Positions 17,082 through 55,473 of a DNA stretch of 64,000 bases are shown here, piece after piece. The notes beneath the pieces are model-generated. The model did not search any database. It worked only from the letters and a program-made list of their open reading frames with translations, and was not told the origin of the DNA. The translations under genes were made by a program, and so were the position numbers. This DNA is from Granulicella tundricola MP5ACTX9. GTDB lineage: Bacteria > Acidobacteriota > Terriglobia > Terriglobales > Acidobacteriaceae. Positions within the stretch are counted from its first letter, which is position 1, and each line of letters begins with the position of its first letter. Where the stretch lies: contig NC_015064.1 of assembly GCF_000178975.2 (NCBI RefSeq), positions 1,240,001-1,304,000 on the forward strand, written 5' to 3'.

Positions 17082-20000
17082 ATGATGGCGGCAGTTGGGA
17101 CGAAGAAGGCGGCGAAGGCGGCAGTGAAGAAGGTGGGGAAGAAGCTCGCCACGGCTGCGGAGGCTGTGGCTGAGGTGAGTGGGGCGGATGCTGCGCTGGC
17201 GCTGTTTCATCCGGTGACTGCGCGGTGGTTTCGTGAGGTGTTTGACGGGCCTACGGCTCCGCAGATTGAAGGGTGGCCTGCGATTGCTCGGGGGGAATCG
17301 ACGCTGATCCTGGCTCCGACTGGGACGGGTAAGACTCTGACCGCGTTTCTCTGGTGCCTGGATAAGTTGATGCTGCGGGATGTCAGCGCCGGGGTGGAGC
17401 GTGGGTGCAGGGTGGTTTATCTTTCGCCGCTGAAGGCTCTGGCTGCGGACGTTGAACGGAATCTGAGATCGCCGCTGGCGGGGATTGCGAACTTTGCCAG
17501 GCGCGAGGGTGTGCCGGTGCATCTGCCGGAGATCAGCGTGCGGACGGGGGATACGCCGGCGAAGGATCGGGCGAGGTTCAATCGGCATCCGGGGGAGATT
17601 CTAATTACCACGCCGGAGTCTTTGTACCTGATGCTGACGAGTGCGGCTGCGGAACAGCTCAGGACCGTTGAGACGGTGATTGTGGATGAGATTCATGCGC
17701 TGGTGCCTAGTAAGCGGGGGGCGCATATGGCGCTGTCGCTGGAGCGGCTGGAGGCTCTGGTGGCGCAGGGTGGGACGGGGCGGAAGATCCAGCGGATTGG
17801 GTTGAGTGCTACGCAGAGGCCGCTGGAGGAGGTGGCGAGGTTTCTGGGGGGAGCGGAGATGGTTGTAACCCACGTCCCAGAATCGGGACATGGGGCACCC
17901 AGTTTGGTTGCCAATATTGAAGGCGAAGTGCCCCAGGCTTTGATGGAGGTGGCTCGGGATGAGGTGGAGGCGAGTACGGGTGGGCCTCGTTTCAGGCCGG
18001 TGACGATTGTGAATGCGGGTGCGCGGAAGGTGCTGGACCTGCGGGTGGAGGTGCCGGTTGAGGATATGGCGAAGCTGGGAGAGATCCAGGAGCAGCCGAG
18101 TGGGCCGGCTTCGCAAGGGCCTAAGCGGACTTCGATCTGGCAGTCGATTCATCCGCGGTTGCTGGAGATTATTCGCGGGCGGACCTCTACGCTGATCTTC
18201 GTGAATGCCCGGCGGGTGGCGGAGAGGCTGGCAGGGGCGATCAATGATCTGGCAGGCGAGCCGCTTGCCCGGGCGCATCATGGATCGCTGGCGGCGGCGC
18301 AGAGGACGGAGATTGAAGAGCTGCTGAAGGCGGGCAAGATCAAGGCGCTGGTGTGTACCTCGTCGCTGGAACTGGGGATCGATATGGGGGCGATCGACCT
18401 GGTGATCCAGATTGAGGCACCGCCGAGTGTGGCGAGTGGGATGCAGAGGATTGGGCGGGCGGGGCATCAGGTTGGGCAGCCCTCGAACGGGATTATTTTT
18501 CCGAAGTATCGGGCGGATTTGGTGGCTTGTGCGGCGGTGACTCGGGCGATGCATGAGGGGCATGTAGAGTCGACGCGGTTTCTGCGGAACCCGCTGGATG
18601 TGCTGGCGCAGCAGATGGTGGCGATCATCGCTCGTCCTCCCGCAGAGCTGCCTCCGTTGAAGAAAGGCAAGAAAGCTCCGCTGGTGGAGGTGACGGAGGA
18701 GGAAGAGGCTACGGGCATCTCGTATGACGAGCTGCTGGGGCTGGTGAGGTCTTGCGCGAACTTTGCGGGGCTGACGCAGGCCGTTTTTGATGGCGTGCTG
18801 GATATGTTGGCGGGCAGGTATCCGAGCGATGAGTTTGCGGAGCTGCGGCCTAGGATTACGTGGGATCGGCAGAGGAACTGGCTGACGCCGCGGCAGGGCG
18901 TGAAGAAGATTGCGATTCTGAATGGCGGGACGATTCCTGACCGGGGGCTGTATGGGGTGTTCCTGGCTGGGACTGCGTCGGGGAAGCCTATACGGGTGGG
19001 TGAGCTGGATGAGGAGATGGTGTTCGAGCAGAGGACGGGCGATACGTTCATTCTGGGGGCTTCGACGTGGAGGGTAGAGGAGATTACGCATGACCGTGTG
19101 CTGGTGAGTCCGGCACCGGGTGATCCGGGGAAGATGCCGTTCTGGCATGGGGATCAGGCGGGCAGGCCGCTGGAGTTCGGGCGGAGGATCGGTGCGCTGG
19201 TGAGGGGGCTGCGGGAGACGCCGCGGAGTGTGGCGATTACGACGTTGACTGCGGACCACGATCTGGACCCGCAGGCGGCCGAGAACGTGATGCGGTATCT
19301 GGCGGATCAGGAGCTTGCGACGGAGGTGGTGCCGGATGACCGGAACATCGTGATCGAGCGAGTGAGGGATGAGCTGGGCGATTGGCGGATGTGCTGCCTG
19401 ACGCCGTTTGGGAGCAAGATCCATGCGCCGTGGGCGATGGCGGTGACGGCTCGGATACGCGCGAATGGCGGGCCTGAGGTGGAGACGATGTGGTCCGAGG
19501 ATGGGTTCGTGCTGCGGTTTCCGGAGTCGGATACGCCGCCGACGATCGACCACCTGATGATGGAGCCGGAGGAGGCTGCGGAGCTGGTGCTGCGGCAGCT
19601 TGGGTCTACGGCGCTGTTTGCGGCTAAGTTTCGGGAGTCGGCTTCACGTGCGCTGCTGTTGCCGAGGCGTCGGGCGGATGGACGGACTCCGCTGTGGCAG
19701 CAGAGGAAGCGAGCTTATGACCTGCTGAGTGTGGCTTCTCGGTATGCTTCGTTTCCCATACTGTTGGAGGCTTATCGCGAGTGCTTGCGGGATGTGTTCG
19801 ATATGCCTGCGCTGATGGAGATCCTGCGGGCGATTGGGAATCGGTCGCTGCGGGTGCATACGGCTGATTCGCGGACGCCTTCGCCGTTTGCTGCGGCGCT
19901 GCTGTTTAGTTATGTGGCGAATTACATCTATGACGGGGATGCTCCGCTGGCGGAGAGACGGGCGCAGGCGCTTTCGATCGACCAGGATCAGCTCAGGGAG

Positions 20001-21911
20001 TTGATGGGGGATGCGGACCTTCGGGAGTTGCTGGATCTGGGGGCTATCGAGGAGACGGAAGAGCAGCTTCAGTGCCTGGCGGAGACGTATAGGGCTCGGT
20101 CGATGGATGGGGTGCATGATCTGCTGCTGAAGCTGGGGGATCTATCGCGGGCGGAGTTGCTGGTGCGGTGCGTTTCGCCTGAGATTGCGCTGACGGTGGA
20201 GCGGTTGCGGAAGGCGATTCGGGTTTTAGAGGTGGGGATTGGGGGCGAGAAGAGGCTGATTGCGGTGGAGGATGCGGGGCGGTACCGGGATGCGCTGGGG
20301 GTGCCGCTGCCTCCGGGGTTGCCGTCGGCTTTTCAGGTGGCGGTGCCGGATGCGACGCTCGACCTGCTGCGGCGGTATGGGCGGACGCATGGGCCGTTTA
20401 CGACTGCTGAGGTGGCGAAGCGGTTTGGGCTTGCGCTCGAGACAGCGGAGGGGGTGCTCAACAGGCTTGTGGGCTTGGGGCGGATTGTTGAGGGTGGGTT
20501 CAGGCCGGGGGGGACGCACCGGGAGTGGTGTGACCATGAGGTGCTGCGGGCGATTCGGCGGAAGTCGCTCGCCAAGCTGCGGAAGGAGGTTGAGCCGGTT
20601 GAGCAGGCTACGCTGGCTCGGTTGTTTACGCGGTGGCAGGGGGTGGTGCAACCGCGGCGGGGGCTCGATGCGCTGCTGGATGTGATTGAGAATTTGCAGG
20701 GGGCACCTATCCCCGCTTCGGTGCTGGAGACGGAGGTTCTGCCGGCTCGGATACTGGGGTATAAGCCTGCGGATTTGGATACGCTGGTGGCTGCTGGGGA
20801 GGTGGTGTGGTGTGGGCTGGATGCGATTGGGGAGAGGGATGGGCGGGTGGCGCTTTATCTGGCGGAGAAGCTGCCGTTGCTCTGGCCTGTTCGGCCGGAG
20901 CAGGGATCAGGGGACAGGGGTCAGGGATCAGACAGTTCGCCAACTGCTGAGCGGGAGGGGAAGGTTGTGGAGTACCTGAAGGCGAATGGGGCTTCGTTCT
21001 TTCAGCAGTTGCATGATGGTACGGGTGGGGGGTATCCGGGGGAGACGATTGAGGCTATCTGGAACCTGGTGTGGCGAGGGCTGCTGACCAATGATGCTGT
21101 TCATGCGTTGCGGGCTTACTGTGAGCGGCCTGCGGCTTCGTCCAAGCCTGCCCGGCGGGTGCATAACCAGGTTGGATTTCGGTCTCGGCGGACGACTCCT
21201 CCTACGGCGCAGGGGCGTTGGTCGCTCAATGCTGTGGCGTTCGAGGAGGGCAGGAACGGGACGGAGTGGAGTCATGCTGTGGCGCAGCAGTTGCTGGGGC
21301 GGTATGGGGTGGTGTTTCGGGAGACGGCTCATGCGGAGGGGCTGCCTGGGGGGTTCTCGGCGGTGTACGACGTGCTGAAGGTGATGGAGGAGAGTGGGAA
21401 GCTCCGGCGGGGGTACTTTGCGGCCGACCTGGGGGCTACGCAGTTCGCCATGCCGGCGGCGGTGGATCTGCTGAGGTCGCTGCGAGTAGTGCGCGATGGG
21501 GAGAAGGCGGAGATGGTGCAGTTGGCGGCGACCGACCCAGCCAACCCTTACGGGGCGCTGCTGCGGTGGCCGGCTGCGGGTGAGGGGGTTAGCCTGCAGC
21601 GGAGTGCAGGGGCGAGGGTGATCCTGTGCGATGGGGCTCTGCTGGCGTATATGCGGCGGGGGAATCCTAACCTGCAGGTGTTCCTGCCGGAGGAGGAGCC
21701 GCAGCGGACGCAGAGTGCGAAGGCGCTGGGGGAGTTTCTGGTGGCGCGGGCGCACTCGCATGATGCGGGGATGCTGATTACCAGCCTCAACGGGACTTCG
21801 GTGCATGAGCATTGGGCTGCGAGGGCGCTCCTGGAGGCGGGGTTTATGGCTGCGCCGATGGGGTTCAATGTGCGGCGGATTTTGCCTGCGCTGCCGAAAT
21901 CGACCCCTTGA
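17082..21911 (+). CDS. lhr: Lhr-type ATP-dependent DNA helicase
   Basis: A 1609-residue superfamily-2 helicase of the Lhr (large helicase-related) type, thought to act in DNA repair. An Ala/Lys-rich N-terminal tail of about 30 residues resembles a histone-H1-like tail. Then come Walker A APTGTGKT (near residue 78), DEIH (near 200), SAT (near 240), the RecA2 motifs TSSLELGID and QRIGRAGH (near 455), and the long C-terminal Lhr region. A 36-bp palindromic repeat is in frame after SAT (residues about 263-274, reading THVPESGHGAPS), and a 35-nt heptamer array is in frame near residues 1274-1285 (GSGDRGQGS). Both fall in poorly conserved segments, so the protein is probably functional. It follows cheR by 54 bp. 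Confidence 0.92.
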   Translation: MMAAVGTKKAAKAAVKKVGKKLATAAEAVAEVSGADAALALFHPVTARWFREVFDGPTAPQIEGWPAIARGESTLILAPTGTGKTLTAFLWCLDKLMLRDVSAGVERGCRVVYLSPLKALAADVERNLRSPLAGIANFARREGVPVHLPEISVRTGDTPAKDRARFNRHPGEILITTPESLYLMLTSAAAEQLRTVETVIVDEIHALVPSKRGAHMALSLERLEALVAQGGTGRKIQRIGLSATQRPLEEVARFLGGAEMVVTHVPESGHGAPSLVANIEGEVPQALMEVARDEVEASTGGPRFRPVTIVNAGARKVLDLRVEVPVEDMAKLGEIQEQPSGPASQGPKRTSIWQSIHPRLLEIIRGRTSTLIFVNARRVAERLAGAINDLAGEPLARAHHGSLAAAQRTEIEELLKAGKIKALVCTSSLELGIDMGAIDLVIQIEAPPSVASGMQRIGRAGHQVGQPSNGIIFPKYRADLVACAAVTRAMHEGHVESTRFLRNPLDVLAQQMVAIIARPPAELPPLKKGKKAPLVEVTEEEEATGISYDELLGLVRSCANFAGLTQAVFDGVLDMLAGRYPSDEFAELRPRITWDRQRNWLTPRQGVKKIAILNGGTIPDRGLYGVFLAGTASGKPIRVGELDEEMVFEQRTGDTFILGASTWRVEEITHDRVLVSPAPGDPGKMPFWHGDQAGRPLEFGRRIGALVRGLRETPRSVAITTLTADHDLDPQAAENVMRYLADQELATEVVPDDRNIVIERVRDELGDWRMCCLTPFGSKIHAPWAMAVTARIRANGGPEVETMWSEDGFVLRFPESDTPPTIDHLMMEPEEAAELVLRQLGSTALFAAKFRESASRALLLPRRRADGRTPLWQQRKRAYDLLSVASRYASFPILLEAYRECLRDVFDMPALMEILRAIGNRSLRVHTADSRTPSPFAAALLFSYVANYIYDGDAPLAERRAQALSIDQDQLRELMGDADLRELLDLGAIEETEEQLQCLAETYRARSMDGVHDLLLKLGDLSRAELLVRCVSPEIALTVERLRKAIRVLEVGIGGEKRLIAVEDAGRYRDALGVPLPPGLPSAFQVAVPDATLDLLRRYGRTHGPFTTAEVAKRFGLALETAEGVLNRLVGLGRIVEGGFRPGGTHREWCDHEVLRAIRRKSLAKLRKEVEPVEQATLARLFTRWQGVVQPRRGLDALLDVIENLQGAPIPASVLETEVLPARILGYKPADLDTLVAAGEVVWCGLDAIGERDGRVALYLAEKLPLLWPVRPEQGSGDRGQGSDSSPTAEREGKVVEYLKANGASFFQQLHDGTGGGYPGETIEAIWNLVWRGLLTNDAVHALRAYCERPAASSKPARRVHNQVGFRSRRTTPPTAQGRWSLNAVAFEEGRNGTEWSHAVAQQLLGRYGVVFRETAHAEGLPGGFSAVYDVLKVMEESGKLRRGYFAADLGATQFAMPAAVDLLRSLRVVRDGEKAEMVQLAATDPANPYGALLRWPAAGEGVSLQRSAGARVILCDGALLAYMRRGNPNLQVFLPEEEPQRTQSAKALGEFLVARAHSHDAGMLITSLNGTSVHEHWAARALLEAGFMAAPMGFNVRRILPALPKSTP
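17867..17902. repeat. 36-bp palindromic repeat (family E), inside lhr
   Basis: CCCACGTCCCAGAATCGGGACATGGGG core with flanks AACC...CACCCAG. CGTCCC/GGGACA-type arms make an imperfect palindrome. Copies: 25615, 27463, 50450. Here it is read in frame as part of the helicase. Confidence 0.85.
20901..20935. repeat. Heptamer tandem array (CAGGGRN)5, inside lhr
   Basis: Five consecutive 7-nt units: CAGGGAT, CAGGGGA, CAGGGGT, CAGGGAT, CAGACAG. It is read in frame in the helicase linker. Similar arrays are at 34478, 45428 and 30577. Confidence 0.85.
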
Positions 21912-25042: not shown

Positions 25043-25080
25043 GGCGGTCCTTTGTGTCCAGGGTGTGTACAGCTCTACAA

Positions 25081-25170
25081 GCAACTGCAACTGCAACTGC
25101 AACTGCAACTGCAACTGCAACTGCAACTGCAAATACCAATACTGAGGTTCTGGCTTCGCCAGAATGACGG
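25081..25170. repeat. GCAACT x8 array plus TTCTGGC hairpin (family B)
   Basis: Eight perfect GCAACT units (25081-25128) are followed by AAATACCAATACTGAGG and the hairpin TTCTGGC-TTC-GCCAGAA (25148-25164), then TGACGG. It lies in the upstream region of the isochorismatase-like gene. Confidence 0.9.
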
Positions 25171-38637: not shown

Positions 38638-38994
38638 GGCGCTCTCTTTCTCAGGTTTCTGAGGATAGCGCATGCGGACGGCTTTGAGGAGATGCAGATC
38701 CCTTCGCTGCGCTGGAGATGACAAACAAAAGCAAGAACAACGGCAACCGCAGATTCCCTACGGGAATGACAAACAAAGGGGCAACAGCACGGACGGCGGA
38801 TACGGCAAAGACAACGACAACGACAATGACAGTGACAACGGCAACGGCAACGGCGAAATACCGAGGTTCTGAGCTCGCTCAGAATGACGATGGTTTGGGC
38901 GGGGTGGGGAAGGTAGAGACGAACCCCACGATGACTTCGCCTCGGCTTTGCTTAGGGGCGGTGATCATGGGGCACCGTGTTGGGGCTTTTGTCG
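38638..38994. other. Repeat-filled intergenic region
   Basis: No gene is seen in these 357 bases. The middle is a chain of family B units (38693-38890); the rest is a short unrecognised stretch before the rseP stop codon. Confidence 0.6.
38693..38890. repeat. Chain of hairpin/hexamer repeats (family B)
   Basis: In order: a GCAGATCCC...GATGACAAAC unit, CAACGGCAAC, a GCAGATTCCC-TAC-GGGAATGAC hairpin, an array of CAACGA/CAACGG-like hexamers (about 38809-38854), and the hairpin TTCTGAGC-TC-GCTCAGAA (38868-38885) followed by TGACG. Confidence 0.85.
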
Positions 38995-50199: not shown

Positions 50200-50240
50200 G
50201 AGAAAGGGTATCGTGAACGGGTGCTTTGGGAAGGGTGACG

Positions 50241-51986
50241 ATGGCGTTTTCTCGTGTGATTGGGACGGAGTTGAAGGTGACTGGCAAGAGTGCGAAGAAT
50301 GCTGCGGCTGTGAAGGAACTGATCGCGGAGATTCGGAAGCAGGAGCAAGGGATTCGTGCGGGTGGTGGGGAGAAGGCTGTTGCGGCGCAACGGGCTAAGG
50401 GGCGGCTTACTGCTCGGGAGCGGATTGGTCTTTTGGTGGATTCGGTGGAAACCCATGTCCCAGAAGCGGGACATGGGGCACTCGGTATCGCAGGGTTCCT
50501 GGAGCTGGGGCTTTGGGCGGCGCATGGGATGTACGCGGAGTGGGGTGGGGCTCCGGGGGCGGGGGTGGTTTGCGGGCTGGGAAGGGTGCAAGGGAAGCTG
50601 TGCATGATCGTGGCGAACGATGCGACGGTGAAGGCGGGTGCGTTCTTTCCGATGACGGCGAAGAAGGTGCTGCGGGCGCAGGCGATTGCGCTGGAGAACC
50701 GGATTCCTACGCTGTATCTGGTGGACTCGGCTGGGGTGTTTCTGCCGCTGCAGGAGGAGGTGTTTCCAGATCAGGATGACTTTGGGCGGGTGTTCAGGAA
50801 TAACGCGGTGATGAGCAGCTTGGGCGTGCCGCAGATGACGGCGATCATGGGGATGTGCGTCGCGGGCGGGGCGTATCTGCCGGTGATGACCGATACGGTG
50901 CTGATGACGGAGGGGTCGGGGTTGTTTCTGGCGGGGCCTGCGCTGGTGCAGGCGGCGATCGGGCAGAAGACTCCGGCGGAGGAGTTGGGTGGGGCGGCGA
51001 TGCATGCGGAGATTTCTGGGACTGTGGATTACAAGGAGGCGGATGATCCGGCTTGCCTGGAGCGGATGCGGTCGCTAGTGGGGATGATTGGGGCTCGGGC
51101 GGAGGCTCCGTTTTCTCGGGCGGAGTTCGATGCGGTTGCGGATGCGCCGAAGTTTGCGGCAGAGGATCTGTATGGGCTGCTCGATCCGGCTTCGGGGGCT
51201 AGTAATGTTTATGACATGCATGAGGTGATTGCGCGGGTCCTGGATCGGAGTGAGTTTGATGAGTACAAGGTGGAGTTTGGGCGGACGGTGATCTGTGGGT
51301 ATGGGCGGATTGACGGGAGGGCGGTGGGGATTGTGGCGAATCAGAAGCTGAATCAGACACAGACTGTCGCGATGGGGCCGATGGCGGGGACGAAGCGCAT
51401 TGAGGTGGGTGGGGTGATCTATACGGAGGCCGCGCAGAAGGCGGCTCGATTCATCATGGACTGCAATCAGAACCTGGTGCCGCTGATCTTTCTGCATGAT
51501 GTGAATGGGTTCATGGTGGGGAAGGATGCGGAGTGGAGTGGGATTATCAGGGCGGGGGCGAAGATGGTGTCGGCTGTGAGTACGAGCGTGGTGCCCAAGA
51601 TTACGGTGATCGTTGGGGGGAGCTTTGGGGCGGGGCACTATGCGATGTGTGGGAAGGCTTATGATCCTCGGTTTATCTTTGCTTGGCCGACTGCGAGGTA
51701 TGCGGTGATGGGTGGCGCGGCTGCGGCGAATACGTTGGCGGAGATCAAGGCGAAGCAGATGGAGCGGGCGGGGGAGACTGTATCGGACGAGCGGAGGCAG
51801 GAGCTCTGGGCAGAGATCAAGGCGGGGTATGATGCGGCGGCTGATCCTCGGTATGGGGCTGCAAGGTTGTGGGTGGATGCGATTATTGATCCGGTTGAGA
51901 CTCGGGAGGTGCTGATGGTGGCGCTGGAGGCTTGTGCTTTGAATCCGGAGGTGGCGAAGTGGAATGTGGGGGTGATGCAGACTTAG
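50241..51986 (+). CDS. Acyl-CoA carboxylase carboxyltransferase subunit (methylcrotonyl-CoA carboxylase beta type)
   Basis: A 581-residue biotin-dependent carboxyltransferase subunit. N- and C-terminal carboxyltransferase halves are clear: VDSAGVFLPLQEEVFPDQDDFGRVF in the first, and GGSFGAGHYAMCGKAYDPRF and the AVMGGAAAA segment in the second. The pattern and the neighbours HMG-CoA lyase and methylglutaconyl-CoA hydratase point to methylcrotonyl-CoA carboxylation in leucine breakdown. The biotin carboxylase/BCCP subunit is not in the window. A 36-bp palindrome is in frame near residues 71-81 (THVPEAGHGA). The ATG at 50241 follows GGGAAGGGTG. Confidence 0.9.
   Translation: MAFSRVIGTELKVTGKSAKNAAAVKELIAEIRKQEQGIRAGGGEKAVAAQRAKGRLTARERIGLLVDSVETHVPEAGHGALGIAGFLELGLWAAHGMYAEWGGAPGAGVVCGLGRVQGKLCMIVANDATVKAGAFFPMTAKKVLRAQAIALENRIPTLYLVDSAGVFLPLQEEVFPDQDDFGRVFRNNAVMSSLGVPQMTAIMGMCVAGGAYLPVMTDTVLMTEGSGLFLAGPALVQAAIGQKTPAEELGGAAMHAEISGTVDYKEADDPACLERMRSLVGMIGARAEAPFSRAEFDAVADAPKFAAEDLYGLLDPASGASNVYDMHEVIARVLDRSEFDEYKVEFGRTVICGYGRIDGRAVGIVANQKLNQTQTVAMGPMAGTKRIEVGGVIYTEAAQKAARFIMDCNQNLVPLIFLHDVNGFMVGKDAEWSGIIRAGAKMVSAVSTSVVPKITVIVGGSFGAGHYAMCGKAYDPRFIFAWPTARYAVMGGAAAANTLAEIKAKQMERAGETVSDERRQELWAEIKAGYDAAADPRYGAARLWVDAIIDPVETREVLMVALEACALNPEVAKWNVGVMQT
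50450..50484. repeat. 36-bp palindromic repeat (family E), inside carboxyltransferase gene
   Basis: AACCCATGTCCC-AGAAGC-GGGACATGGGGCACTCG; arms pair perfectly. It is read in the same frame as the copy in lhr. Confidence 0.86.
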
Positions 51987-52169: not shown

Positions 52170-53033
52170 ATGGTAAAGATCATTGAATGTCCGCGGGATG
52201 CTTGGCAGGGGTTGCCGAAGGTGATGGCGCCGGAGGTGAAGGCGGATTATCTGCGGGTTTTGATTGCGGCGGGGTTCAAGCATATCGATGCGGTGAGCTT
52301 TGTTTCGAAGACGGCGCTGCCGCAGATGGCGGACTCGGAGCTGGTGCTGGAGTATCTGGACCCGCCGGATGATGTCGAGATCATTGGGATTGTGGTGAAT
52401 GAAAAAGGGGCGGAGCGTGCCGTGAAGTCGGGTGCGGTGCAGACACTGGGGTTTCCATATTCGATCTCGCCGGGGTTCCTGCAGAGGAACCAGAATCAGA
52501 CGCCGGAGGAGTCGCTGGAGGCTCTGGAGGCGGTGGGGACGATTGGGTACAAGGGGGGGCTGGAGGTGGTGGCTTATCTCTCGATGGCGTTCGGGAATCC
52601 TTATGGAGATGCGTGGTCGATCGATGAGGTCGTCGATGCGTGCGACTTGCTGGTGGACTGTGGAGTGAAGCAGATCTCGCTGGCGGATACGGTGGGGTTG
52701 GCGACGCCGAGGATGGTGGCGGATGTGTTGAGCGATGTGATGGCGGTGCATGACCGGATCGAGATTGGGGTGCATCTGCATGCGAGGCCAGAGATGGCTG
52801 CGGAGGTGATTGCGGCGGCTTACGGGGCGGGTTGCAGGCGGTTCGATGCGGCGATTGGCGGGATGGGCGGGTGTCCATTTGCACAGGATGCGCTGGTGGG
52901 GAATGTGCCTACGGAGGTGCTGATTGCGGAGCTGAAGAGGCTGGGGGCGGAGTTGCCGGATATGCGTCCGCTGGATGGGCTGTTGGCGGCTGCGAGGGAG
53001 ATTGAGAAGCGGTATGGAACGGTGGTTCAGTAA
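52170..53033 (+). CDS. Hydroxymethylglutaryl-CoA lyase
   Basis: Cleaves HMG-CoA to acetyl-CoA and acetoacetate, the last step of leucine catabolism. A 287-residue TIM-barrel of the HMGL-like family: RDAWQG near residue 9 (usual R-D-G/x-x-Q), the ADTVG segment, HLHARPEMA metal His residues, and the signature GMGGCPFAQD (about 229-238) with the active-site Cys. Its stop overlaps the next ATG by 1 nt (TAATG), so it is coupled to the enoyl-CoA hydratase. Confidence 0.93.
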   Translation: MVKIIECPRDAWQGLPKVMAPEVKADYLRVLIAAGFKHIDAVSFVSKTALPQMADSELVLEYLDPPDDVEIIGIVVNEKGAERAVKSGAVQTLGFPYSISPGFLQRNQNQTPEESLEALEAVGTIGYKGGLEVVAYLSMAFGNPYGDAWSIDEVVDACDLLVDCGVKQISLADTVGLATPRMVADVLSDVMAVHDRIEIGVHLHARPEMAAEVIAAAYGAGCRRFDAAIGGMGGCPFAQDALVGNVPTEVLIAELKRLGAELPDMRPLDGLLAAAREIEKRYGTVVQ

Positions 53034-53884
53034 TGGCTACCGTGCTGATTGAAGATGCGGGTGGGGTGAGGACGCTGACGTTGAATCGGCCGGAGCGGCG
53101 GAATGCGCTTACGCCGGAGATGCAGTTGGAGTTGATTGCGGCGATGGAGGCGGTGGCTAAGGATAATAGCGTTCGGGTGGTGGTGCTGACGGGGGCGGGT
53201 GAGGGGTTCTGTGGGGGCTTGGACCTTTCCGTGTTGCAGGGGATGGCGGGGCTGAGCGCGGCGGAGTATGAGGCGGATGCGCGGCGGATAGCGCGGATGT
53301 TCCGGGTGCTTTATGAGCTGTCGGTACCTACGATTGCGGCGGTGAATGGTCATGCTGTCGCCGGGGGAACGGGGTTGGCTACGCTATGTGACTTCACGCT
53401 GGCGGTGCCGGGGGCGAAGTTCGGGTATACGGAGGTGCGGATTGGGTTTGTGCCGGCTCTGGTTTCGGCTTACCTGACGCTGCAGGTGGGGGAGAAGCGG
53501 GCTCGGGAGTTGCTGCTGACGGGGCGGCTGTTTGGGGCGGAGGAGGGGTATCGGCTGGGGTTGGTGACGGAGGTTGTGGCGGCTTCCGATATGGCAGCGA
53601 GGGTGGTGGAGTTGTGTGGGGCGCTGGTGGGGAACTCGCCTGGCTCCATGGCGCGGACTAAGGAGCTCTTGGTGGGGTCGAACAGGGCGTGGCTGGATGA
53701 GGCGATTGAGGCGGCTGTGCTGATGAATGGGCGGGTGAGAGAGACGGCTGACTTCAAGGAAGGCATCGCCAGTTTTCTGGAGAAGCGGAAGCCGGTTTGG
53801 AGTGTCTCTGATATCGCGCAAGTGCAAGAACAAGCAACAGCAACTGCAAGTACAAATACGGAGGTTCTGGCTTCGCCAGAATGA
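53033..53884 (+). CDS. Enoyl-CoA hydratase/isomerase family (methylglutaconyl-CoA hydratase-like)
   Basis: A 283-residue crotonase-fold enzyme; by position it would hydrate 3-methylglutaconyl-CoA to HMG-CoA. The oxyanion-hole segments GAGEGFCGGLDLS and GHAVAGGTGLATLCDF and the acidic residue in FGYTEVRIGFVPA are present. The normal crotonase fold ends near KRKPVWS; the last 20 or so residues (VQEQATATASTNTEVLASPE) are encoded by a family B repeat, and the stop codon is the TGA just after its hairpin. So the natural stop was probably replaced by repeat DNA. Confidence 0.9.
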   Translation: MATVLIEDAGGVRTLTLNRPERRNALTPEMQLELIAAMEAVAKDNSVRVVVLTGAGEGFCGGLDLSVLQGMAGLSAAEYEADARRIARMFRVLYELSVPTIAAVNGHAVAGGTGLATLCDFTLAVPGAKFGYTEVRIGFVPALVSAYLTLQVGEKRARELLLTGRLFGAEEGYRLGLVTEVVAASDMAARVVELCGALVGNSPGSMARTKELLVGSNRAWLDEAIEAAVLMNGRVRETADFKEGIASFLEKRKPVWSVSDIAQVQEQATATASTNTEVLASPE

Positions 53885-53933: not shown

Positions 53934-55418
53934 ATGACAGATACCTTGATCGCTTCCGCTCCTACTCGTGTACGTATTGCGCCTTCGCCGACCGGCGATC
54001 CTCACGTTGGCACCGCCTATATCGGGCTGCTGAACTACATCTATGCGCGGCAGCGGGGTGGGCAGTTTGTGCTGCGGATCGAGGATACGGACCGGGCGCG
54101 GTTTGTGGCTACGAGTGAGCAGGAGATCTTCGACTCGCTGCATTGGCTCGGGTTGGAGTGGAATGAGGGGCCCGATGTTGGTGGGCCGTATGGGCCTTAC
54201 CGGCAGTCGGAGCGGACGGAGATCTATCGGGAGCATGTGGAGCTGCTGCTGGCGAACGGCACGGCTTACAAGGCTTATGAGAATGCCGAGGAGCTGGAGG
54301 CGATGCGGAAGTCGCAGCTTGCTGCCAAGCTGCCTCCTCGCTATAACGGCGCGCATCGAGAGCTGACGGCGGAGCAGATTGCGGCGTTTGAGGCTGAGGG
54401 CCGGGCCTATGTTGTGCGGCTGAAGGTGCCGGTTGAAGGTGAGACTGCGTTCCGCGATGAGCTGCGGGGGGAGATCAAGTTCAGCCACAACAACGTGGAC
54501 GATCAGGTGCTGATGAAGTCGGATGGGTTCCCGACGTATCACCTGGCGAACGTCGTCGATGACCATCTGATGAAGATTACGGATGTGATTCGTGCGGAGG
54601 AGTGGATCTCATCAACGCCGAAGCATGTGCTGCTGTACCAGGCGTTTGGCTGGGAGCTGCCGAAGTTCTGGCATATGCCTCTGCTGAGGAACCTGGATAA
54701 GAGCAAGATCTCCAAGCGGAAGAATCCGGTTTCACTGATCTATTACCGACAGGCTGGGTTTCTGCCTGCTGCTGTTCTCAACTTTCTAGGGTTGATGGGC
54801 GGTGGTATGCCGGCGGGGACCGACAAGGCTGTGCAGGCGGAGATCTTTACGCTGCCGAAGATGCTGGACGAGTTCAAGTTCGACCGGATTGCGCTGGGTG
54901 GACCGGTGTTCGACCTGGTGAAGCTGAAGTGGCTGAATGGCGAGTATCTGCGGGCGCTTCCCGGCGAGGAGTTCTTCCTGCAGCTCAAGAACGTGGTGTT
55001 CTCTGACGAGGTGCTGCGGGCGATCGCTCCGCTGGTGCAGACGCGGATCGAGACGCTGGGTCAGTTTGGCGATCTGGCCGACTTTTTCTTCAGAGACGAC
55101 GTGACTCCGGCGCAGGAGGTGTTTGTGCCGAAGAAGCGGACGCTGGAGGAGACGATGGCGTTCACCGGTGAGATGCTGGCGGTGCTCGAAGGCTGTGAGT
55201 GGAGCCACGATGCACTGGATGCGGCGCTGCGTGGGGTGGGGACGGCTAAGGAGTGGTCGGTCAAGGAGAGCTTTATGCTGCTGCGGGCTATCCTGACTGG
55301 CTCTACTTCTTCTCCGCCGCTGCTGGAGAGTCTGGTGGTGTTTGGTAAGGCTCGGTCTTTGGATCGGGTGAGGCGGTTTGTGGATGGGCAGAAGAAGATT
55401 GCTGGTGGAAGACGGTAA
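53934..55418 (+). CDS. gltX: Glutamyl-tRNA synthetase
   Basis: Charges tRNA-Glu (and possibly tRNA-Gln) with glutamate. A 494-residue class I synthetase with APSPTGDPHVGT (the HIGH-like HVGT at 24-27), LRIEDTDRAR, and the KMSKS-like KISKRK (about 257-262). C-terminal anticodon-binding helical region is present. The ATG at 53934 gives the standard start. A family B repeat begins immediately after its stop. Confidence 0.97.
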   Translation: MTDTLIASAPTRVRIAPSPTGDPHVGTAYIGLLNYIYARQRGGQFVLRIEDTDRARFVATSEQEIFDSLHWLGLEWNEGPDVGGPYGPYRQSERTEIYREHVELLLANGTAYKAYENAEELEAMRKSQLAAKLPPRYNGAHRELTAEQIAAFEAEGRAYVVRLKVPVEGETAFRDELRGEIKFSHNNVDDQVLMKSDGFPTYHLANVVDDHLMKITDVIRAEEWISSTPKHVLLYQAFGWELPKFWHMPLLRNLDKSKISKRKNPVSLIYYRQAGFLPAAVLNFLGLMGGGMPAGTDKAVQAEIFTLPKMLDEFKFDRIALGGPVFDLVKLKWLNGEYLRALPGEEFFLQLKNVVFSDEVLRAIAPLVQTRIETLGQFGDLADFFFRDDVTPAQEVFVPKKRTLEETMAFTGEMLAVLEGCEWSHDALDAALRGVGTAKEWSVKESFMLLRAILTGSTSSPPLLESLVVFGKARSLDRVRRFVDGQKKIAGGRR

Positions 55419-55473
55419 GACAGGCAACTGCCAAGACCAATACGGAGGTTCTGAGCTTCGCTCAGAATGACGA
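55419..55473. repeat. Family B repeat after gltX
   Basis: CAGGCAACTGCCAAG, ACCAATACGGAGG and hairpin TTCTGAGC-TTC-GCTCAGAA, then TGACGACC. It fills most of the space between convergent gltX and the DsbD-alpha gene. Confidence 0.87.

Follow-up and report, generated by a model that had tools for sequence, protein, structure and literature searches.

The window, the whole stretch of 64,000 nucleotides of Granulicella tundricola MP5ACTX9 DNA that was analysed, carries a crotonase (enoyl-CoA hydratase) gene followed by gltX, with a copy of one hairpin repeat, family B, at the 3' end of each. The crotonase cluster has an acyl-CoA carboxylase beta gene just upstream of it. The features at the locus are as follows.

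53033 to 53884, + strand: crotonase / enoyl-CoA hydratase gene, 283 aa, with a tail of 27 residues past KRKPVW
53809 to 53811, + strand: TGA outside the reading frame, at the point of termination in homologues; a candidate remnant of the native stop
53818 to 53855, + strand: array of degenerate GCAANN-type hexamers, which encodes QVQEQATATAST and extends into the following codon
53856 to 53886, + strand: family B unit, by type a CGTC REP, with foot ATACGGAG, hairpin GTTCTGGC-TTC-GCCAGAAT and GACG end, holding the in-frame TGA 53882-53884
53934 to 55418, + strand: gltX, native stop retained, C-terminus of the same length as in relatives
55419 to 55472, + strand: family B unit that adjoins the gltX stop on its 3' side, stem GAGCTTCGCTC

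The Pfam ECH_1 match on the crotonase open reading frame has its C-terminal limit at residue 257, and alignments of the listed PDB crotonases reach residue 260 at most. The frame runs on to TGA 53882-53884, which in the window sequence lies within "GAATGACG" of the repeat, and the last 22 residues are encoded, together with this stop, by the hairpin repeat: from 53818 onward the codons pass through GCAANN-type hexamers and ATACGGAG into the hairpin GTTCTGGC-TTC-GCCAGAAT, and ATATASTNTEVLASPE is part of the predicted tail. An initial annotation had claimed that the repeat supplies both the C-terminus and the stop codon of this enzyme, and comparison with the crotonases of relatives bears this out. 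Counted from K251, our protein has 33 residues, compared with 6-18 (median 9) in all 58 homologues; it exceeds their median by 24 residues, and an equally long tail occurs in 0/58. The homologues were best-first matches with loci, 29 from a genus search and 29 from a family search. The 31-nt hairpin of the crotonase copy folds better than shuffled sequences (z -2.7), as does that of the gltX copy (z -3.7), whereas the folding of the whole 69-nt unit including the array was not outstanding against shuffles (z -1.2).

How the native end was lost is a separate question. Overwriting of the crotonase stop by the repeat, as the initial annotation had it, is unproved. Between KPVW and the repeat there are five codons (AGT GTC TCT GAT ATC), and a TGA in another frame stands where homologues end. 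A slight shift of frame in front of a unit that already lay downstream would therefore be at least as likely as overwriting, and would require fewer steps. The predicted tail is preceded by a complete crotonase fold and is therefore probably tolerated and neutral.

Directly behind gltX the repeat leaves the gene intact. The unit begins immediately after the stop, at 55419, and runs to 55472, and the stop itself has survived, both as the initial annotation described: measured from an anchor, the gltX tail has 24 residues, with a median of 24 and a range of 22-33 in 29 relatives. The GC skew at gltX is +0.28, opposite to that of most relatives (of 29, 24 are negative, 1 is positive and 4 lie within 0.05 of zero), and this positive skew is consistent with relocation. 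It thus lends some weight to a rearrangement, in which a recombination breakpoint at the repeat cut the 3' end of the crotonase gene and joined the gene to new DNA ahead of gltX. By eye, several relatives (for example L093, L096, L107 and L146) also read a VRYAETDQMGVVYH-like frame behind the crotonase stop, probably the start of a thioesterase, where gltX stands here. The crotonase is, however, complete to its conserved end, so that the last few codons alone are affected, and a rearrangement may be older than the loss of the stop; we regard this explanation as possible but unlikely.

The family B repeat is abundant in this genome. The pattern GTTCTN{2,14}AGAATGACG has 114 matches in 5.50 Mb (63 forward, 51 reverse) versus 0 for the reversed control pattern, and the repeat is therefore not a chance motif. 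We studied 101 of the 114 copies, the 100 that were listed and one further copy in L186. The other matches in the window, 25147-25169 and 38866-38889, belong to two further units.

25069 to 25169, + strand: family B unit, hairpin intergenic, carrying a (GCAACT)n array; the array (start approximate) has a 64-nt overlap with the called start of the adjacent gene
38805 to 38889, + strand: family B unit with a hexamer array, intergenic; array start approximate

The 5' end of the unit is ARAACARRCAAC, and its foot reads TACGGAG in 70/112 copies (with the tail CTCCGTA) and TACTGAG in 18/112. When the pattern was anchored at the 5' foot and the end left free, the unit ended in GACG (= CGTC) in 108 of 122 copies, in GACC in 6, GACT in 3, GACA in 3 and otherwise in 2. 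In the stem, TTCTGAGC/GCTCAGAA, the first two pairs are T-A and the predicted loop has 3 nt (5 with the last C-G pair open); across copies the stem changes in pairs (GAG..CTC, GCG..CGC, GG..CC), with mismatches in the TCG..CTC class. Because the opposite strand of the unit begins with CGTC, family B is assigned, by type, to the CGTC-tagged REP superfamily, which includes Neisseria dRS3 and Rickettsia RPE-4/RPE-6 (PMC3733652). These REPs are described there as having a stem of 8-9 bp with A-T as first and second pairs and a loop of 4-5, a CCA tail in most families and predominantly head-to-head dimers, the last two being typical and not defining; the same account places no transposase beside them and gives no generally known mobilising enzyme (PMC3733652). 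Family B resembles them in its terminal CGTC (on the other strand), T-A first pairs and high copy number, and also in lying mostly in co-directional and convergent gaps, in having copies within genes in frame and others at ORF ends, and in the absence of an adjoining transposase. It differs in having no inverted GTTCT pairs, a CTCC instead of a CCA tail and a GCAANN hexamer array, in showing no closeness to 3' ends (19/79 units within 20 nt versus 16.1 by chance), and in an orientation locked to GC skew. Like the Rickettsia RPE, as described in PMC3733652, family B is a palindromic repeat read in frame within functional proteins. The two come from different phyla, and 89/100 family B copies are intergenic. 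Their sequences are presumably different as well.

Family B is a private expansion within its genus. A longer pattern that contains the foot finds 86 copies here, and a single copy in each of 3 of 61 other genus genomes. The short pattern TTCTN{2,14}AGAATGACG is present in 215/250 family genomes, mostly in few copies and in many at the frequency of the reversed control; the genomes rich in it are G069 (156), our own (131), G031 (89), G130 (64) and G034 (52). Related hairpins were seen in G034, G069, G031 and G071 (L321-L350), many of those in G069 forming inverted pairs about 65-70 nt apart. Our own units are single or head-to-tail, unlike the inverted pairs in the relatives G034 and G069: there is no inverted neighbour pair among the 100 GTTCT copies, and one copy (L077) has an opposite ATTCT-type hairpin about 100 nt away.

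The crotonase is not the only gene into which a unit has been drawn. On called genes, some units have become coding, at C-termini, internally and perhaps at an N-terminus. LpxK (L051:12507-13463) ends in a family B unit read in the same frame as in the crotonase, giving TNTEVLASPE and the stop, and two unrelated enzymes thus share a repeat-coded C-terminus. Its tail of 33 residues lies within the range of relatives (17-34, n=28; one locus without a stop, L258, was dropped from 29), so that here the native end was replaced and not extended. A family 18 glycosidase and a TonB receptor each end in SF and a stop supplied by an antisense unit, two units in all. A further six antisense copies lie in frame inside called genes (L049, L050, L057, L071, L072, L081), including IlvB-, CobQ- and Lhr-type genes; five of the six genes have Pfam domains and the one in L057 is without a match. 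Their units encode [AV]VILSEAQNL in five cases and RHSERSSEPPYL in one (IlvB-type). A comparison of the CobQ-like protein with the PDB gave no match. The IlvB insert falls within a linker whose length varies among 29 relatives with loci. In three loci of other species (L274, L277, L281) this linker holds different inserts, as if the site were tolerated, and at least one of them, SRPERSEAEG (L274), resembles a REP translation. The called N-terminus of a DsbA-like gene (L080:5971-7815), which includes a signal-peptide-like run of leucines, consists of an antisense REP and a hexamer array, and the true start of this gene is uncertain.

A second repeat, family A, becomes coding more often than family B: among 35 units in gene-called stretches there are 13 overlaps with called genes, three of them merely at the stop codon. 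Two such units lie in the window.

50445 to 50486, + strand: family A ('D6') REP within the acyl-CoA carboxylase beta gene (50235-51986), which reads it in frame as VETHVPEAGHGALG
17862 to 17903, + strand: family A REP read in frame as VVTHVPESGHGAPS by an Lhr-type helicase gene (called at 17082-21911)

At the first of these, both of the PDB alignments shown are 14 residues shorter than the carboxylase. A second Lhr-type helicase gene (L050:2580-7196) holds in-frame inserts of two family A units and one family B unit.

Coding use elsewhere bears on whether the crotonase tail could be an artefact of sequencing or annotation, with a small error hiding the real stop and the tail not being made. 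In favour of this is the out-of-frame TGA at the place where homologues end, but the same unit-coded peptide has independently replaced the native end of LpxK, and 11/100 units overlap called genes, so that coding use does not depend on one base at this locus. We therefore consider an artefact improbable. Since protein-coding REPs are already published (Di Nocera 2013, PMC3733652), the crotonase tail is one more case of a known use, though a clean one. Where TNTEVLASPE or VILSEAQNLS is met in these proteins, it is repeat-derived and need not be a functional motif.

The initial annotation had further suggested that the family targets gene ends, a suggestion that clustering of units within a few bases of stop codons across the genome would bear out and a random distribution relative to gene ends would refute. 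We compared unit positions with 694 genes (80% coding) predicted by our own Markov-model caller in 58 stretches, 57 and the window. Of 100 copies, 89 are intergenic, 7 lie within called genes and 4 cross a gene edge. In co-directional gaps (n=50) the position of the unit is uniform (mean 0.475, p=0.54), with 27/50 closer to the stop. Near stops the units are no more frequent than under random placement within 79 gaps: 33 units versus 31.2 +/- 3.0 expected within 50 nt, 19 versus 16.1 within 20 nt and 4 versus 3.2 within 3 nt. Starts, on the other hand, are avoided, with 13 units within 50 nt versus 20.0 expected (p=0.016, 79 gaps); the deficit within 20 nt is not significant (5 versus 8.6, p=0.11). 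Only 10 of 83 occupied gaps are divergent, though divergent gaps hold 30% of intergenic bases (p=8e-5), and the densities are 0.81 units per kb in co-directional, 0.83 in convergent and 0.30 in divergent gaps, a biased sample because the gene-called stretches were selected around copies. From the deficit at starts and in divergent gaps, together with the lack of a stop excess, it follows that family B units avoid promoters without seeking stops.

These counts weigh against an element that targets gene 3' ends, whether as a terminator or as a seeker of stop codons, and that overwrote the crotonase stop on insertion. In its favour are the units at both gltX and the crotonase, the 4/35 units with an upstream co-oriented stop that abut this stop within 3 nt, and two precedents: in S. 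wittichii, most CGTC-1 units sit in convergent gaps no more than 20 bp from an ORF 3' end, and a stop codon is often supplied by GTAG REPs (PMC3733652). As a general rule it is refuted here by the uniform positions in co-directional gaps and the random-placement test, and the expected clustering at stops did not appear at 3, 20 or 50 nt. Nor does the 5' end of the unit, ARAACARRCAAC, hold a conserved stop codon, a T at -3 being found in only 20/49. For the crotonase, too, we think such targeting quite improbable.

More surprising is the orientation of the family. In 100/100 copies (101/101 with the L186 copy) the orientation of the unit equals the sign of the GC skew over about 12 kb. It agrees with local gene direction in 40/100, and in all 60 places of disagreement the skew was followed. 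The 95 listed copies on contig C5 form, by an eye count, 21 alternating runs, and the 100 copies are thus not 100 independent events. Hexamer arrays follow the skew in 53/53 scored cases, with 2 more at |skew| < 0.05. In our own stretches the same agreement is found for family A (42/44), family C (20/20), ATTCT variants (10/11) and GGGGCTAAAGCCCC (9/9). Of 94 units in whole 5-kb bins of unit-centred stretches, 88 lie at |skew| >= 0.2 and 3 below 0.1. Single unpaired CGTC-type hairpins of relatives, scored where |skew| was at least 0.05 and no neighbour lay within 250 nt, agree with the skew in 26/27 rows, or 23/24 distinct cases after duplicates were removed by hand; of the four single hairpins unscored for low skew (|skew| < 0.05), three oppose the small skew. 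Inverted pairs, common in relatives, cannot obey the rule. That the perfect orientation is an effect of composition, a G-richer motif being commoner on G-rich DNA, draws on the slightly higher content of G than C in the unit with its foot, but the hairpin TTCTGAGCTTCGCTCAGAATGACG contains 5 G against 6 C, its copies are dispersed and not formed de novo, and the hexamer arrays agree 53/53, which leaves this explanation with next to no credence.

The skew itself comes in patches of 0.2-0.4 that change sign many times along C5, independently of gene direction. An effect of gene direction is ruled out by codon position 3, where the 277 genes of the G-rich strand show a skew of +0.50 and the 320 of the C-rich strand one of -0.61 (genes with a flank skew of at least 0.15); intergenic skew is +0.20. 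The AT skew is mostly opposite in sign to the GC skew, with near-zero patches in between (window and C5 stretches L031-L087, L151-L190). A two-replichore skew was not seen in the sampled C5 stretches, nor clearly in G113 and G091 (20 stretches each), and the many flips on C5 are not what a single origin predicts, unless there were many inversions or another cause. Patchy skew is weaker in the single-contig relative G113. The skew sign of orthologues is largely kept in the genus (29 each): for the crotonase 29 are positive, for lpxK 24 are positive and 2 negative, and for ilvB 20 are negative and 4 positive, the remainder of the lpxK and ilvB orthologues lying within 0.05 of zero.

Taken together, we consider it probable that the feature is a lineage-specific REP copy read through by the crotonase frame, and that the family has spread strand-specifically, probably by a single-stranded DNA route. 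The element, a hairpin of the CGTC-tagged type flanked on its other side by a GCAANN hexamer array, lies 3' of the crotonase gene. The crotonase frame no longer ends natively and passes through the unit to the unit's own TGA, as the sequence and the 58 homologues show. The strand-specific process that spread the family would most likely be insertion into single-stranded DNA at replication forks, of the type carried out by HUH (Y1) transposases. Orientation, copy number and, on called genes, coding use were observed directly; we infer insertion into single-stranded DNA, and its coupling to replication, from the orientation of every examined copy with the local G-rich strand regardless of gene direction, since single-strand insertion at forks predicts a strand specificity that does not depend on transcription. 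Reportedly, Gomez et al. 2014 also deals, by its title, with replication and transposon orientation. The insertion sequences IS608 and ISDra2 of the IS200/IS605 group insert into the lagging-strand template (PMC6006769), and such replication-tied, strand-specific insertion would give the orientation of family B; the likeness is an analogy only, since IS ends or a transposase are not shown for family B. The orientation rule has a partial precedent in the tandem REP arrays of P. fluorescens SBW25, which switch from forward to reversed across the origin (PMC3116915). In the open-licence literature, no title or abstract opening was found to report a tie between REP orientation and GC skew, and among the matches listed for the letters AGAATGACG none was a REP paper by title.

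A broader reading, which we hold tentatively and as rather less than an even prospect, is that REP families form a strand-locked record of single-stranded DNA exposure: insertion would occur on one strand, at forks or in other persistent single-stranded DNA, the exposure would make that strand G/T-rich through cytosine deamination, and the flipping patches would be the resulting mosaic. If this were true, CGTC REPs, for which no transposase is known, would be shown to move by a single-stranded route. The orientation rule is in our view the useful part of these results: if REPs for which no transposase is known all lie on the G-rich strand, their mode of spread can be put to the test, with natural replicates in the patches of skew along the chromosome.

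Unlike family B, two of the other repeat families are physically tied to candidate mobilising genes. The genome has four Y1/RAYT-like genes, on which NCBIfam REP_Tyr_transpos matches partial domains, all under the curated cut-off of 80 bits, and families A and C are each tied to one of them, as in REP/RAYT systems. No complete family B unit was found in the 3.2-3.3-kb loci round the four genes, which rejects a neighbouring RAYT as its mobiliser, and family B also differs from REP/RAYT systems in its GGAG foot and GACG end in place of GTAG. At one RAYT-like gene (L119:1230-2048), family C hairpins and then GCAACG hexamer arrays lie on both sides. In a second (L120:1459-2007 = L063:3043-3582), the last 15 residues and the stop fall in or just after a family A REP, and the protein ends in VETHVSEARRGAPKG before the stop. 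In a third (L121:1294-2001), a hexamer array codes the C-terminus.
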